From the IMG/VR virus record IMGVR_UViG_3300001419_000077, positions 1 to 20,656 of that record: DNA of 20,656 nt; one strand, 5' to 3'. Under the pieces are notes generated by a model. That model was not told the DNA's origin. It searched no databases and saw only the letters and a program-made list of their open reading frames with translations. A program made the position numbers and the translations under genes. Position 1 is the first letter of the stretch; each line of letters begins with the position of its first letter. The DNA is from a virus. Below are positions 2,462-9,173 of the stretch, piece by piece.

Positions 2462-3049
2462 TTGGCAAACCTATTTGATGCCGCAGCCGCGCCGGAGGGC
2501 GAACCGTCCGAGATCGTCGTCGGCGACTATATTCAATGGAAGCGGTCAGACCTGACGACCGACTACCCGACCGCCGACTACACCGCCACATATGTCGCCC
2601 GGATTACCGGCGGCGGGGCAAGTGAGATACAGATCACCGGCACCGCGTCGAATGGCGCCTATCTTTTCACGGCTGACTCGACCACATCGGCGGATTTCAA
2701 TCCGGGCTATTATCACTGGCAACTCGAAATTGTCCGCAATTCCGACAGCAATCGGATCGTGGTGGATCGCGGCGCGTTCACGGCAATCGTTGACCTTGAT
2801 GTCAACAACAGCGACCCGCGCACTCATGCCGAGAAAATGCTGACAAAAATCGAATCGCTGCTCGAGGGTCGAGCCGACTCCGACGTCGCAAATTATTCGA
2901 TCCAGGGTCGCAGTCTGACCAAACTCTCCATCGATGAGCTGGTCAAATGGCGCGACTATTATCAATCCGAGGTCAACAGAACCAAGCGCCTCGAGGAAAT
3001 CAAGCTCGGTCGCAAAACGTCGGCCACGGTTAAAGTGAGATTCATCTGA
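2462..3049 (+). CDS. Putative head-tail connector, beta-rich N-terminus with gpW-like C-terminus
   Basis: A 195-residue protein between terminase and portal, the slot of lambda gpW. The C-terminal 75 residues (from DPRTHAEKMLTKIESLLEG, then YSIQGRSLTKLSIDELVKWR) have the short beta-hairpin plus helix pattern seen in gpW-type joining proteins. The first 120 residues look like a beta-sandwich (alternating hydrophobics, Gly/Thr rich) and are extra relative to gpW, which is about 68 residues. The start is TTG, well supported by GGAGGT at 2451-2456. It overlaps the portal ATG (TGATG). An alternative is a decoration or other accessory head protein. The gpW link is pattern-based. Confidence 0.6.
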   Translation: MANLFDAAAAPEGEPSEIVVGDYIQWKRSDLTTDYPTADYTATYVARITGGGASEIQITGTASNGAYLFTADSTTSADFNPGYYHWQLEIVRNSDSNRIVVDRGAFTAIVDLDVNNSDPRTHAEKMLTKIESLLEGRADSDVANYSIQGRSLTKLSIDELVKWRDYYQSEVNRTKRLEEIKLGRKTSATVKVRFI

Positions 3050-4557
3050 TGGGAATGTTTGACATTTTCCGCCGGAAGCCGAAGCCGATCAAAAAGCGCG
3101 GATTCGATGGCGCTTCGACCGGGCGGCTGTTTTCTGATTTTGTGACTTCGCAACGCTCGGCGGACTCCGAGCTGCGTTATTCACTCAAAACGCTGCGAAA
3201 CCGCTGTCGGGAGCTGGCGCGCAATAACGAATATGCGCGGCGGTATTTGCATCTAGTAAAAACCAACGTCGTCGGCGAACGCGGCGCGACGCTTCAGGTC
3301 AAGGCAACCAATGTCGACGGCAGCCTGGACACGATCGGCAACTCGATCATTGAGCAGGAGTGGGCGCGCTGGACGCGCGTCGGAAATTGCACTGTCGACG
3401 GGCGTCTGTCATTTACCGACGCTCAGGCGATGGTCGCGGAGTCTATGGCGCGCGACGGCGAGGCACTGGTGCGCTTTGTCAATTATGACGGCAACCAGGA
3501 CCGATTCGCTCTCGAATTCCTCGAGCCTGATTTGATCGACGAGGAGAAAAACGAGCGCGCGCCAAATGGTAACGAGATCAGAATGGGCGTCGAGTTCGAT
3601 CAATACCGGCGCCCGGTCGCTTATCACATGATGACCGAGCACCCTGGCGACTACCAATTCCACCAGTATGATCGCCGCACTCAGCGGGTCGAAGCGGATA
3701 GCATCCTTCATTTGTATATGCCAGACAGAGCCCAGCAAACGCGCGGGGTTCCCTGGATGTCGACGGCGCTGACATCGCTGAAAATGCTGCATGGCTATCG
3801 CGAGGCGGAGCTGGTTGCCGCCAGGACAGCGGCGAGCAAGATGGGCTTTTTCATCTCGCGCTCTGGCGATGGGTTTATGGGTGACGATCTCGAGGACAAT
3901 GTGGTCCCGATCACTGACGCGGAGCCCGGCACGTTTTTCCAGCTCCCCAGAGATGTCGAATTCCAGCCCTGGGACCCATCGCATCCGACGACCGCGTTCG
4001 GCGATTTTGAAAAGTCGATTCTGCGCGGCATCGCGTCCGGGCTGGGGGTTTCATATCATTCTCTGGCGAATGATTTGACGCAAACCAGCTACTCCAGCAT
4101 CCGCCAGGGTAGCATCGAGGACCGCGATTTTTACAAAACGATCCAGAGCTATATGATCGCGCATTTTGTCATGCCGGTTTATCAGCGATGGCTGACCAAT
4201 GCTTTCACGATTGGGCGGGTGAATCTGCCCATCGATAAGTTCGACAAGTTTTATGATGCTTCGCAGTTCCGACCGCGCGGCTTCCAATGGGTCGATCCGC
4301 AAAAAGAGATTTCCGCCCATGTTGTCGCACTGACAAACGGGCTGATCTCAATGCAGGATGTCGCGAACATTTACGGGCGCGATGTCGAGGAAGTATTCGC
4401 GCAGATTGCCAGAGACAAACAGCTCGCCGAACAGTTCGGCCTGAAGCTGGCATTCGAGCCGTTTGGCGGCGGCCAATCGCCATACGGACCCGGCAAGATC
4501 AACTTAATGACCGGCGAATCGTTTGACGCGATGACGGAGGAGCCCGATGGCGACTGA
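3049..4557 (+). CDS. Portal protein, lambda gpB family
   Basis: A 502-residue portal, which forms the ring at one capsid vertex through which DNA enters and leaves. The basic N-terminus (MGMFDIFRRKPKPIKKRG), the RCRELARNNEYARRYLHLVK segment and the downstream SILRGIASGLGVSYHSLAND and YSSIRQGSIED stretches are typical of the lambda portal family (Phage_portal_2). The length is slightly below lambda gpB (533). It overlaps the upstream gene by one base and the protease-capsid gene by 11 bases, so the head genes form a tightly coupled operon. Confidence 0.92.
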   Translation: MGMFDIFRRKPKPIKKRGFDGASTGRLFSDFVTSQRSADSELRYSLKTLRNRCRELARNNEYARRYLHLVKTNVVGERGATLQVKATNVDGSLDTIGNSIIEQEWARWTRVGNCTVDGRLSFTDAQAMVAESMARDGEALVRFVNYDGNQDRFALEFLEPDLIDEEKNERAPNGNEIRMGVEFDQYRRPVAYHMMTEHPGDYQFHQYDRRTQRVEADSILHLYMPDRAQQTRGVPWMSTALTSLKMLHGYREAELVAARTAASKMGFFISRSGDGFMGDDLEDNVVPITDAEPGTFFQLPRDVEFQPWDPSHPTTAFGDFEKSILRGIASGLGVSYHSLANDLTQTSYSSIRQGSIEDRDFYKTIQSYMIAHFVMPVYQRWLTNAFTIGRVNLPIDKFDKFYDASQFRPRGFQWVDPQKEISAHVVALTNGLISMQDVANIYGRDVEEVFAQIARDKQLAEQFGLKLAFEPFGGGQSPYGPGKINLMTGESFDAMTEEPDGD

Positions 4558-7237
4558 CTTTCCGAAGAAAGGCGACGACCAGAAGATATCGCTTCGCAAT
4601 TCCGAATATCCGCAATTCGACCGTGAATTCGCGGAGAACATCAAGGAATTCAACTCCGAGGTTTGGGCGCTCGGCGGGAATGTCCGGGGCAATGATGCGT
4701 TCCGGCTGTGGGGAAGCGCGCGCGATGGCGATGAGGCTGGCTCGGTGTTGGACTGGATCAAAGAGCGGGAAGCCTGGGCCGCGCGTCATTTTGAGGATGG
4801 CGCCCATCTATCGAGCGAGGAGCCGAACAAAAGCAATATCGCCGGCGTCGTCGCTCAAATGAAATGGGGTGTCATTGGCACCCTGGGCGAGCAAGGCATG
4901 AAGGACGCGATTCTCGAGCTGATCAAAAAGCTGGAAGGCAAGAAAGAGGACCGCCAGCTCTCCGATCAGGTCGAGACCGCACTCGAGAATAAGCGCGACG
5001 AGCACAACGAGGAGGTGGGCGACGATCCGCTCCGCCGCGTTACGCTTGCCATGTTGCGCGAAGTAATGGAGCGCGGGATCGGCGCGTATAAGACAAACCC
5101 CGGCTCGGTTCGCCCTGGCGTGAGCTCCCCGGAACAGTGGGGATATGCCAGGGTTAATTCGTTTTTGTTTGCAATGAAGAACGACCGATTCCAGGGCGGC
5201 AAACATGACACCGACTTATTCCCCGACGGTCATCCGCTGGCGTCAGATGATGAAAGCGAGAAAGCGGCGGAGTATACTGGCAAGATGGAAGAATCAGGAG
5301 ATCGCGCAGTGGAACAGCGACATATCAAAAACGTCGTCGAGACCGACGACGAGATCATCATCACATTCGGGAAATCTATGCCCGAGGAGGAAGCGGCGGA
5401 CGAGCCTGATATCGTGGAGGCCGTCGACGATTACGACGAGGAGCGCCTCTCGAAATCCGAGGTATTTCATCGGATGGAACACGCCGAGGTCGAGGAGAAA
5501 GACGACCGGCGCGTTCAAATGTCCGTCTCGAGCGAGCAGGAAGTCGAGCGATCATTCGGTCGCGAGCTGATTGTTCACACCGAGGAAACGCTCGACCTTA
5601 AATTTTTACGATCCGGCAGCGCGCCGCTGCTATTAGATCACGACCCCGAACGACAAATCGGGGTCATTGAATCCGTAAATCTCGACGGATCGGCCCGGCG
5701 TCTCCGGGCGACGGTGCGCTTTGGAAAGGGTGCGCTTGCTGACGAGGTTTATCAGGATGTGCTCGACGGCATTCGCTCGAATGTCTCGATCGGGTACAAA
5801 GTTCGGCGAATGGAAAGGGACAAGGACGAACAGGATTTGTTCCGAGTAATCGATGCCGAAATCATGGAGGTCTCTATCGTTTCACTTCCCGCCGACCCGT
5901 CGGTCGGTGTGGGGCGTTCGGTCGAGGTATCCGACACCGCTACCATTAAACCCATCGAAAAGGAGGTTCCTATCATGGAACAAGAAAACCAAATCGATTT
6001 GGATCAGGTACGCGCGGAAGCCGCTGCCGAACGATCCAAGGAAGTAAACGAAATGCTCGGCCTGGCCGCCAAGCACAATCAGCGTTCATTCGCTGACGAC
6101 GCTATCCGCCAGGGCATGACATTGGCGCAGTTCCGGGGCGCTTTGTTGGACAAGATTGCCGACAAGCCGCTGGACGTCGCTGACGTTGAGCTGACACCAA
6201 AAGAGGAGCGACAATATAGCTTGATCAACGCAATCCGATCAGCGCAGACAGGCCGATTTGACGGCTTCGAGCGTGAGGTATCGGAGGAGCTTGCCAAGCG
6301 ATATGGCAAGGAGCCGCGCGGTTTCTACGTTCCTTCCAGCATCTTCAAGCGGGATTTGACGGTCGGCACCAACGCCGCCGGCGGATTTTTGAAGCCAACC
6401 GACCACCTTGGCGGTGAGTTCATCGACGCGCTTCGCGCGAACCTGGTGATCTCTAGCCTGGGCGCTCGCATGATGCAAGGACTGAAGGGCGACGTCGCCA
6501 TTCCTGCACTGAATGCCAAGACCTCAGTCGGCTTTGTCGCTGAGAACGCGGCGCCCGGTGCTGAAGGCGCTCCGACTTTCCGACAGGTAACGATGTCACC
6601 CAAGACTCTGGTTCAGTACGTTGATATCTCTCGCAAGCTGTCAATGCAATCTGATCCCAGCGTCGAGCAGGTGATCCGCGACGATCTGACCCGCCAATTC
6701 GCGGCGAAGATTGACGAAGTGGCAATCGAGGGCGGCGGTTCTAACGAGCCGGAAGGCATCACCCAGACCAGCGGCATCGGTTCCGTTGTAATGGGCAACA
6801 ACGGCGGTGCGGTTACTTACGCCAAGCTGGTCGACCTCGAGAAGGAAGTCGCCATCGACAACGCGCTGGCTGGAAATCTGGCATACCTCACCAACCCGAA
6901 AGTGGTCGGTGCTATGCGTCAGACTCCGCGCCAGGCGAGCGGTGTTGAGGGTAACTTCATCCTGAACGACAGCAACACCCTGCTGGGTTACAACGTAGCA
7001 AGCTCGACGCTTGTTCCTTCGGATTTGACCAAAGGAACCAGCTCTGGTGTTTGCTCGGCTATAATCTTCGGAAACTTCAATGACCTGATGATCGGCATGT
7101 TCGGCGGTCTCGATGTGCTGGTTGATCCCTACACCGGATCAGCTACCGGCGCGACCCGAATCGCGATGTATCAGGACATTGATGTCGCTGTCCGTCATGC
7201 GGAATCGTTCGCTGCGATTCTGGACGTCACGACTTAA
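4547..7237 (+). CDS. Fused prohead protease and HK97-fold major capsid protein with two uncharacterised N-terminal regions
   Basis: One uninterrupted 896-residue frame. Residues about 14-130 (LRNSEYPQF, NIAGVVAQMKWGVIGTLGEQ) and about 160-230 (GAYKTNPGSVRP, SPEQWGYARVNSF, GGKHDTDLF) are motifs I associate with uncharacterised phage head-module proteins. Residues about 325-460 are an HK97 prohead protease (peptidase U35): H365 in LLLDHDP, S414 in NVSIGYKV and E441 in MEVSIVSLPADP are the likely catalytic residues. Residues 477-896 are an HK97-fold capsid protein (Phage_capsid). Protease and capsid are usually separate genes. Internal starts at 5309 and 5975 suggest nested shorter products from the same frame. 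Protease self-cleavage could also separate the parts. It starts 11 bases inside the portal gene with GGAGGAG upstream. Confidence 0.88.
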   Translation: MATDFPKKGDDQKISLRNSEYPQFDREFAENIKEFNSEVWALGGNVRGNDAFRLWGSARDGDEAGSVLDWIKEREAWAARHFEDGAHLSSEEPNKSNIAGVVAQMKWGVIGTLGEQGMKDAILELIKKLEGKKEDRQLSDQVETALENKRDEHNEEVGDDPLRRVTLAMLREVMERGIGAYKTNPGSVRPGVSSPEQWGYARVNSFLFAMKNDRFQGGKHDTDLFPDGHPLASDDESEKAAEYTGKMEESGDRAVEQRHIKNVVETDDEIIITFGKSMPEEEAADEPDIVEAVDDYDEERLSKSEVFHRMEHAEVEEKDDRRVQMSVSSEQEVERSFGRELIVHTEETLDLKFLRSGSAPLLLDHDPERQIGVIESVNLDGSARRLRATVRFGKGALADEVYQDVLDGIRSNVSIGYKVRRMERDKDEQDLFRVIDAEIMEVSIVSLPADPSVGVGRSVEVSDTATIKPIEKEVPIMEQENQIDLDQVRAEAAAERSKEVNEMLGLAAKHNQRSFADDAIRQGMTLAQFRGALLDKIADKPLDVADVELTPKEERQYSLINAIRSAQTGRFDGFEREVSEELAKRYGKEPRGFYVPSSIFKRDLTVGTNAAGGFLKPTDHLGGEFIDALRANLVISSLGARMMQGLKGDVAIPALNAKTSVGFVAENAAPGAEGAPTFRQVTMSPKTLVQYVDISRKLSMQSDPSVEQVIRDDLTRQFAAKIDEVAIEGGGSNEPEGITQTSGIGSVVMGNNGGAVTYAKLVDLEKEVAIDNALAGNLAYLTNPKVVGAMRQTPRQASGVEGNFILNDSNTLLGYNVASSTLVPSDLTKGTSSGVCSAIIFGNFNDLMIGMFGGLDVLVDPYTGSATGATRIAMYQDIDVAVRHAESFAAILDVTT
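5296..5311 (+). promoter_or_regulatory. Candidate internal ribosome binding site and GTG start before the protease domain
   Basis: AGGAG at 5296-5300 lies eight bases before GTG at 5309-5311, which is in frame (codon 255 of the 896-codon gene). Initiation here would give a 642-residue protease-capsid product without the two N-terminal regions. The SD and spacing are seen directly; use of the start is inference. An ATG at 5285, also in frame, is an alternative with a weaker SD. Confidence 0.4.
5960..5977 (+). promoter_or_regulatory. Strong internal ribosome binding site for the capsid part
   Basis: AAGGAGGT at 5960-5967, a full anti-Shine-Dalgarno complement, lies just upstream of ATG 5975-5977 with seven to eight bases spacing. 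The ATG is in frame (codon 477) and sits exactly where the protease ends and the capsid delta-like helical region begins. It is among the strongest SDs in the window. This points to independent, high-level translation of a 420-residue capsid precursor. Confidence 0.85.
5975..7237 (+). CDS. Major capsid protein, HK97 fold, probable nested product
   Basis: A 420-residue C-terminal product of the fused head gene if translation begins at the internal ATG. Its first 100 or so residues are charged and helical (MEQENQIDLDQVRAEAAAE), like the delta/scaffold domain that U35 proteases remove. The rest has the HK97 capsid pattern: TNAAGGFLKPTDHLGGEFID, SLGARMMQGLKGDVAIPAL, FVAENAAPGAEGAPTF (E-loop region), AAKIDEVAIEGGGSNEPEGI and the C-terminal MIGMFGGLDVLVDPYT. 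The length fits stand-alone HK97-family capsid genes. It is followed within 30 bases by an intrinsic terminator. The coding assignment is firm; that it is made separately is inferred from the SD. Confidence 0.85.
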   Translation: MEQENQIDLDQVRAEAAAERSKEVNEMLGLAAKHNQRSFADDAIRQGMTLAQFRGALLDKIADKPLDVADVELTPKEERQYSLINAIRSAQTGRFDGFEREVSEELAKRYGKEPRGFYVPSSIFKRDLTVGTNAAGGFLKPTDHLGGEFIDALRANLVISSLGARMMQGLKGDVAIPALNAKTSVGFVAENAAPGAEGAPTFRQVTMSPKTLVQYVDISRKLSMQSDPSVEQVIRDDLTRQFAAKIDEVAIEGGGSNEPEGITQTSGIGSVVMGNNGGAVTYAKLVDLEKEVAIDNALAGNLAYLTNPKVVGAMRQTPRQASGVEGNFILNDSNTLLGYNVASSTLVPSDLTKGTSSGVCSAIIFGNFNDLMIGMFGGLDVLVDPYTGSATGATRIAMYQDIDVAVRHAESFAAILDVTT

Positions 7238-7247
7238 TAGTCGAAAC

Positions 7248-7275
7248 GGCGCCCTTCGGGGCGCCTTTATTTTTT
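7248..7275 (+). terminator. Rho-independent terminator after the capsid gene
   Basis: A 7-bp perfect stem GGCGCCC (7248-7254), a stable TTCG tetraloop and GGGCGCC (7259-7265) are followed by TTTATTTTTT. It lies 10 bases past the capsid stop. The next gene starts 11 bases beyond the T-tract, with no room for a promoter, so downstream tail genes need read-through or antitermination. Confidence 0.9.
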
Positions 7276-8817: not shown

Positions 8818-9173
8818 TGGCCGCCAAGGGTGAAAAGTCTCGCGTCATATCGCGCGCGACCGATCATTTCAAGGCAAAGCCATTAAAGCGCATCGAAGTC
8901 GAGGAATGGGGTGACGAGGACGGGCCGCTGGTCGCGTACTCGTCGCCCTTTACCTTGCGCGACCAGGGGCGACTCCAGCATTTGACGGAGAAGCAATCCC
9001 ACGCGGACACCCTGGCCGAATTGTTGATTATGAAATTGGTCGACGAGAACGGCGATAAGATCTTCACAATCGAAGATAAGCGCGCACTCCGAGAGGATGT
9101 TGACGCAACTATCGTCGCCAGAATCGCGAACAAAATCATGTCTACCGATGCTGAGGCGCTTGAGGGAAACTAA
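8817..9173 (+). CDS. Tail assembly chaperone, G-like (zero-frame product)
   Basis: A 118-residue protein between tail tube and tape measure, the position of lambda gpG. It is mostly helical with an early WGDEDGPLVAYSSPFTLRDQ core and a C-terminal segment ARIANKIMSTDAEALEGN. G-type chaperones coat the tape measure during tail assembly and are absent from the virion. Its last codons form a slippery heptamer, and the -1 frame is open for 69 further codons (see the G-T extension). The ATG overlaps the tail tube stop by one base. Confidence 0.8.
   Translation: MAAKGEKSRVISRATDHFKAKPLKRIEVEEWGDEDGPLVAYSSPFTLRDQGRLQHLTEKQSHADTLAELLIMKLVDENGDKIFTIEDKRALREDVDATIVARIANKIMSTDAEALEGN
9164..9170 (+). promoter_or_regulatory. 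Programmed -1 frameshift site (GGGAAAC)
   Basis: G GGA AAC is read in the zero frame as GAG GGA AAC, immediately before the TAA stop. This is a canonical X XXY YYZ heptamer, nearly the same as the GGGAAAG used by lambda G-T. A possible stimulatory stem, GGAATCG (9175-9181) with CGATTTC (9191-9197) and a nine-base loop, begins four bases downstream. It has seven pairs including one G-U. Confidence 0.88.

Follow-up and report, generated by a model that had tools for sequence, protein, structure and literature searches.

The locus described here raises the question of how a phage makes two head proteins, a prohead protease and a major capsid protein, from what appears to be a single gene. It lies in a viral stretch of 20,656 nucleotides (the window; IMG/VR record IMGVR_UViG_3300001419_000077), where a lambda-type portal gene (3049..4557; PF05136, E 1.1e-99, and TIGR01539) is followed by a frame whose start overlaps the portal stop by 11 bases; these and the parts of the locus described next are on the + strand. 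The original prediction of one 896-codon frame holding both protease and capsid was borne out, as the frame is open from the ATG at 4547 to the stop at 7237. The full-length fusion has its own Shine-Dalgarno sequence, GGAGGAG (4536..4549 including the ATG; duplex energy -9.5), and a strong intrinsic terminator with a stem of 7 G-C pairs and a T-rich tail (7248..7275) lies directly 3' of the capsid stop. Pfam recognises DUF5824 (residues 165-212), Peptidase_S78 (357-453) and Phage_capsid (616-890) in the 896-residue product.

The product begins with module A (residues 1-132; 4547..4942), an all-helical domain supported by its conservation in relatives and by AlphaFold2 helices, and continues with module B (residues 140-232; 4964..5242), a helical domain that contains DUF5824 (PF19141, E 5e-6). 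The claim that these two N-terminal regions are conserved stands, with a mean column identity of 74% over 29 sequences. A short beta hairpin, RHIKNVVETDDEIIITFGK, lies within residues 256-277 (5312..5377) and has near-invariant E265 and K276; its strands, 259-265 and 270-275, are taken from a low-confidence model, and the linker around it is poorly predicted or disordered. Next come the protease (residues 320-457; 5504..5917), a second linker (residues 458-484), a delta-like scaffolding segment (residues 477-611; 5975..6379) that is predicted to be mostly helical, and the mature part of an HK97-fold major capsid protein (residues 612-896 plus stop; 6380..7237). The helices of the delta-like segment come from the full-length model, with pLDDT mostly 60-80 there; at a mean pLDDT of 52.2 this model is usable only for the order of elements and is too poor for domain contacts. 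Predicted masses are 98.3 kDa for the full product, 44.8 kDa for residues 477-896 and 29.6 kDa for residues 612-896.

The protease scores 44.1 bits against Peptidase_S78 (PF04586), where the gathering cut-off is 21. Because H365, S414 and E441, which we take to be the catalytic His, Ser and acidic residues of an S78 protease, are invariant in 31 of 31 representatives, the protease looks active. The capsid part (PF05065, E 6e-36) matches the solved R4C capsid chain 8gta_A (E 1e-32), and these two matches identify its HK97 fold, our own model of this part being poor; the accessible text of PMC10276861 also calls the R4C capsid HK97-like. Chain 8gta_A comprises 268 residues and begins at residue 362 of the 629-residue fused R4C ORF (L100), which aligns with G612 in the window. 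Since the solved chain starts at this residue, everything before the position aligned with approximately 612, the delta-like segment included, is cut away or disordered in the R4C virion; the residues before 362 could be disordered instead of cleaved. The word protease is absent from the accessible parts of the R4C papers (PMC6836515, on the genome, and PMC10276861).

The fusion had been singled out as a departure from the normal arrangement of separate genes, but it is not exceptional: protease and major capsid protein in one frame are common and, judged by profile, constitute an already known family, phrog_617. The window's product belongs to this family, since the phrog_617 profile runs through its protease and its capsid part alike (E 2.6e-138; residues 317-894 on profile positions 22-624 of 626). 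NCBIfam NF045541 (prohead protease/MCP fusion) gives 139 bits, over residues 318-548 only, against a curated cut-off of 525, so that by this score the frame is a relative and not a member. The protease-capsid part is also fused in Vibrio VP882, Halomonas phiHAP-1, Dinoroseobacter R4C, Rhodobacter RcCronus, PPpW-3, Escherichia ECO1230-10 and Roseobacter CRP phages, among others; a search of E. coli genomes for DNA related to the ECO1230-10 gene found nothing at its level of sensitivity. In the accessible texts, fused protease-capsid proteins are reported for Paracoccus prophages (PMC6536676, which cites Lactococcus c2 as a fusion precedent), and protease and capsid in one protein for Rhodobacter cluster RcC (PMC8601537).

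The original prediction proposed looking for the same fusion in related contigs, and a frame of module, protease and capsid indeed recurs in many relatives. A tblastn search of 50,697 phage records gave 274 with a match, 183 of them from Salinibacter; the first Salinibacter record, and the sole one read (L083), matches via the N-terminal modules only. Scanning IMG/VR returned 486 stretches that encode relatives, and 80 were kept. Among the loci L001-L102, which include the window's own sequence as L001 and L002, module A, DUF5824, protease and capsid are combined in 63 ORFs, and module A, protease and capsid without DUF5824 in 6. Module C, a different N-terminal module, precedes protease and capsid in 9 ORFs and stands before DUF5824, protease and capsid in 1, while DUF5824 alone precedes them in 1; protease and capsid with no module detected were found in 19 named or partial ORFs, some of them cut by contig ends. 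That an assembly error or frameshift joined separate genes is vanishingly improbable. The start of the window does bear an adapter left untrimmed at the contig end (bases 1-45, presumably Illumina), which calls for caution on contig ends, but independent contigs and complete isolate genomes have the frame open as well, and a frameshift or stop between the parts, named at the outset as the refuting case, is excluded by these relatives. One record, L102 (PQ671644.1), is filed as a Straboviridae Escherichia phage, and the stretch fetched from it has the portal/fused-capsid arrangement described here; it is possibly mislabelled or chimeric.

The layout had been taken to imply either an internal start or self-cleavage, and the evidence favours both, the former for production of the capsid and the latter, near residue 612, for its maturation. 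At the junction of protease and capsid, AAGGAGG, an 8-nt spacer and an ATG (5960..5977; Met477, ATG at 5975) form an internal ribosome-binding site and putative pro-capsid start. With an anti-Shine-Dalgarno duplex energy of -12.8, it ranks first among the 49 in-frame start codons of this ORF and surpasses all 18 gene starts that were scored across the window. The Met477 column is Met in 98 of 99 aligned ORFs spanning protease and major capsid protein (L001 and L002 included) and in all but one of 31 representatives that share less than 80% identity, within a variable linker where nearby columns are mostly far less conserved; L102 (26% identical) is the single ORF of the 99 without Met at the aligned site. 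A second set of relatives, obtained via module C, has the equivalent Met in 56 of its 58 ORFs; among its 30 representatives the count is 28, and each of these 28 carries a Shine-Dalgarno core of at least 4 bases. Of the two misses, L233 has an ATG 3 codons upstream and L263 has none at the aligned site.

Compared with 629 further in-frame ATGs in these ORFs, the junction ATG has a longer Shine-Dalgarno core (p 2.5e-12), and the observed Shine-Dalgarno total was reached in 0 of 1000 rounds of synonymous-codon resampling; both analyses used 30 representatives, L102 being omitted as it has no Met there. With the invariant Arg457 as the only anchor, an in-frame ATG follows within 40 codons in 61 of 61 representatives, versus 69% of random windows drawn from these ORFs (p 1.8e-10); 40 of the 61 have an ATG in the +1 frame, and none of the 61 has one in the +2 frame. 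By a score that ignores spacing, no more than 33 of the 99 ORFs have their strongest in-frame duplex at the junction ATG (one tie). The core is just 3 bases long in L091 and L099, and the cyanophages S-CBS1, S-CBS3 and S-LBS1 keep the junction Met with no Shine-Dalgarno sequence; cyanobacteria make weaker use of this signal. RNA folding at the junction site is unremarkable (z -0.61), with a 5-bp hairpin that encloses the ATG and leaves the Shine-Dalgarno sequence mostly free. A nested start for the protease alone (M310 or M325) was rejected, since neither Met is conserved.

A conserved in-frame start with a ribosome-binding site inside a longer ORF is the signature of a nested in-frame gene. 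Since the junction Met is conserved and its Shine-Dalgarno sequence exceeds what synonymous resampling yields, internal initiation is the most likely source of the pro-capsid (residues 477-896). In relatives with separate genes (14 listed of 33), the capsid ATG sits at or a few bases past the protease stop, mostly with AGGAG-like sites, and the fused form for this reason looks like the separate-gene arrangement minus a stop codon. The junction Met could be left over from a time when the capsid had its own gene; the Shine-Dalgarno cores of 4-8 bases, above synonymous expectation, argue against drift or a relic.

We therefore favour, with a probability of roughly 0.8, a nested in-frame double gene that would yield an excess of short pro-capsid and a minority of a long, protease-bearing form. 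The sequence itself shows the open frame with its domains, the conservation of the junction ATG and the excess of Shine-Dalgarno matches there. Ribosomes starting at 4547 would produce the 98-kDa form with module A, DUF5824 module, protease, delta segment and capsid domain, and those starting at 5960-5977 the 45-kDa pro-capsid, presumably in larger amount. Because both forms share the capsid domain, the long form could co-assemble as a minority subunit, so that the prohead would enclose the protease and the N-terminal modules in an amount governed by both start sites. Cleavage by the protease close to residue 612, in long and short forms alike, would then leave identical mature subunits of approximately 30 kDa and release modules, protease and delta segments. 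The idea that the modules enter the prohead on a minority of subunits would follow from the internal start.

The same frame could instead encode a true polyprotein, with only the 896-residue form made and the capsid freed by its protease, one protease per capsid subunit. The uninterrupted frame with its upstream Shine-Dalgarno sequence, the predicted activity of the protease and the lack of the upstream part in the mature R4C capsid would all suit such a scheme, but it leaves the invariant junction ATG and its enriched Shine-Dalgarno sequence without a reason and would need hundreds of protease and module copies to fit into each prohead; we consider it quite unlikely. It is also unlikely that the capsid comes mainly from a transcript of its own, whether started at a promoter within the protease-coding part or produced by mRNA processing, with the internal site used on that transcript. 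Such a transcript is compatible with the same internal start, and there is one sigma-70-like match at 5250-5278, but promoter-like matches are at chance level (1 found versus 1.2 expected). A promoter at the junction itself was rejected, none standing out over chance.

Known systems offer partial parallels to the nested double gene. Other phrog_617 fusions likewise consist of an S78 protease, a Met-bearing linker, a delta-like segment and an HK97-fold capsid, encoded after a portal gene; those fetched without modules match from approximately residue 317, and the window adds the two N-terminal modules, approximately 235 residues. The Roseobacter phages CRP-821, CRP-406 and CRP-811 share the gene order, the fusion and the presence of N-terminal modules, but their first module is module C, not module A. 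HK97 encodes its protease (gp4) and its capsid with delta domain (gp5) in separate genes, and the N-terminal scaffold segment is cut in maturation. The protease family, the capsid fold and the N-terminal scaffold segment are thus common to HK97 and the window, which differs in its single frame and nested start. Retroviral Gag and Gag-Pro-Pol also combine a shell protein with a co-assembling minority subunit that is longer by a protease; there the extension is C-terminal and arises by frameshift or readthrough, so that this is an analogy only and implies no relationship.

In lambda, the protease gene C has a nested in-frame downstream start, that of Nu3. The nested product of lambda is the scaffold, with the capsid gene E separate, whereas in the window it would be the capsid. 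Lambda C and E are covalently joined as X1/X2 in the prohead (accessible text of PMC3224144), a joint protease-capsid product that is made after translation. The Paracoccus fusions are unlike the window in having a ClpP-type domain and a Mu gpT-type capsid (accessible part of PMC6536676), and the accessible parts of the Paracoccus and Rhodobacter papers (PMC6536676, PMC8601537) do not mention an internal start. Searches of the largely open-access literature turned up no paper that describes an internal start for the capsid in phrog_617-type fusions, and the phrog_617 fusion records examined carry no such annotation. What is new is the two-start reading with its conservation evidence, together with the swapping of modules between portal and protease.

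Profile searches of the N-terminal regions, suggested by the original prediction, succeeded for the second region and failed for the first: residues 1-130 gave no Pfam match and no PHROG match below E 0.05, and the second region is DUF5824, at 27.1 bits against a gathering cut-off of 25, in a partial match covering positions 69-113 of 127. We found no paper mentioning DUF5824 in the open-access literature. AlphaFold2 predicts residues 1-250 to be helical (mean pLDDT 74.6). Among solved structures the modules have no match by sequence and 8 by fold, all with E above 6. A fold search of BFVD gave 12 matches at E <= 0.001, some named XkdF and ChaB, with a prohead protease just above threshold (2.2e-3); aligned identity is high and global TM-scores are low, so these matches are mostly the same sequence families.

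Scanning with module A matched at least 600 stretches, with 589 relatives among the matches listed, from which 80 were kept (L106-L185). Among the matches listed in this set, module A is joined to a portal in 69 ORFs and to protease and capsid in 6, and stands alone in 5, several of them cut by contig ends. All 10 of the portal-module cases scanned with Pfam are PF04860 (HK97-type) portals. In at least 32 loci the portal-module ORF is followed by separate protease and capsid ORFs, and in none listed by a fused ORF; the portals detected in fused phages are of the lambda type and lack the module. The module C scan (L186-L265) gave 40 ORFs with module C, protease and capsid, 20 more with DUF5824 in between, and 2 cases of module C at a portal C-terminus. 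Module C is part of phrog_2859, and homology between modules A and C was rejected (hhalign probability 0.3%), with a distant link possible given the low-diversity profiles. In L262 (3799-4326), module C is an independent gene of 176 aa, with the unfused protease and capsid genes on either side. A Tudor-like domain (PF11160) is present in the N-terminal part beside module C in L199, L209, L243, L055 and L085.

In Salinibacter phage 15_1, module A and DUF5824 belong to a protein of 846 aa that matches S78 weakly, and a separate 460-aa ORF after it is taken to be the capsid; its module-bearing protein (L083, 7569-10109) has an extra N-terminal segment of approximately 145 aa. On cellular genome contigs the module was found in 3 loci, all on MAG contigs and accompanied by phage genes or, by eye, by protease-like sequence (L104); of 100 genomes sampled from the phylum to which L104 belongs, 1 has it, namely the L104 genome itself. 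In L105 (5001-5379), a Verrucomicrobiales MAG contig, a frame break splits module A between a portal ORF and a MuF-like ORF, by either sequencing error or recoding.

What the modules do is a separate matter, compatible with the nested start. They may serve as a longer scaffold or as a targeting segment, holding the protease at the portal or the prohead core until they are degraded, to which we give slightly less than even odds. In favour of such a tether, the same modules sit on the portal C-terminus at the at least 32 loci where all three ORFs were detected and protease and capsid are separate, and the C-terminal crown of the R4C portal opens toward the inner capsid (accessible text of PMC10276861). 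Since the crown and the N-terminus of the long form would both be placed inside, both attachment points would face the head interior, and a role inside the prohead may be the common denominator of the modules. Yet the modules come and go, less like an obligatory targeting device, which one would expect to be less dispensable: besides the 6 ORFs with module A and no DUF5824 and the 19 named or partial ORFs with neither module detected, L029 is 90% identical to the window over residues 231-896 and lacks residues 127-230, for which reason DUF5824 looks dispensable.

T4 and P1 (Dar) package internal proteins in their heads. By analogy, the long subunit might be a delivery vehicle, by which swappable domains (module A, DUF5824, module C, Tudor-like) would enter the prohead, be cut loose, leave with the DNA and act in the new host, with the portal C-terminus as carrier in unfused phages. 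This is rather doubtful; if true, the nested capsid start would set the cargo dose.

Fused protease-capsid ORFs are annotated as 'major capsid protein' across a widespread phage family. Should the nested start be in use, capsid translation would really begin hundreds of codons downstream of the annotated start, and the protease-to-capsid ratio would be set by translation, with the protease covalently tied to the lattice. That these modules are exchanged between the tail end of a portal and the front end of a protease suggests that they have a common job inside the head. Elsewhere in the window, a slippery heptamer, G GGA AAC, stands in frame at 9164-9170, directly 5' of the stop of a 118-aa tail assembly gene, and the -1 frame after it stays open to the start of the tape measure gene; by analogy, this looks like a programmed frameshift of the lambda G/GT type.
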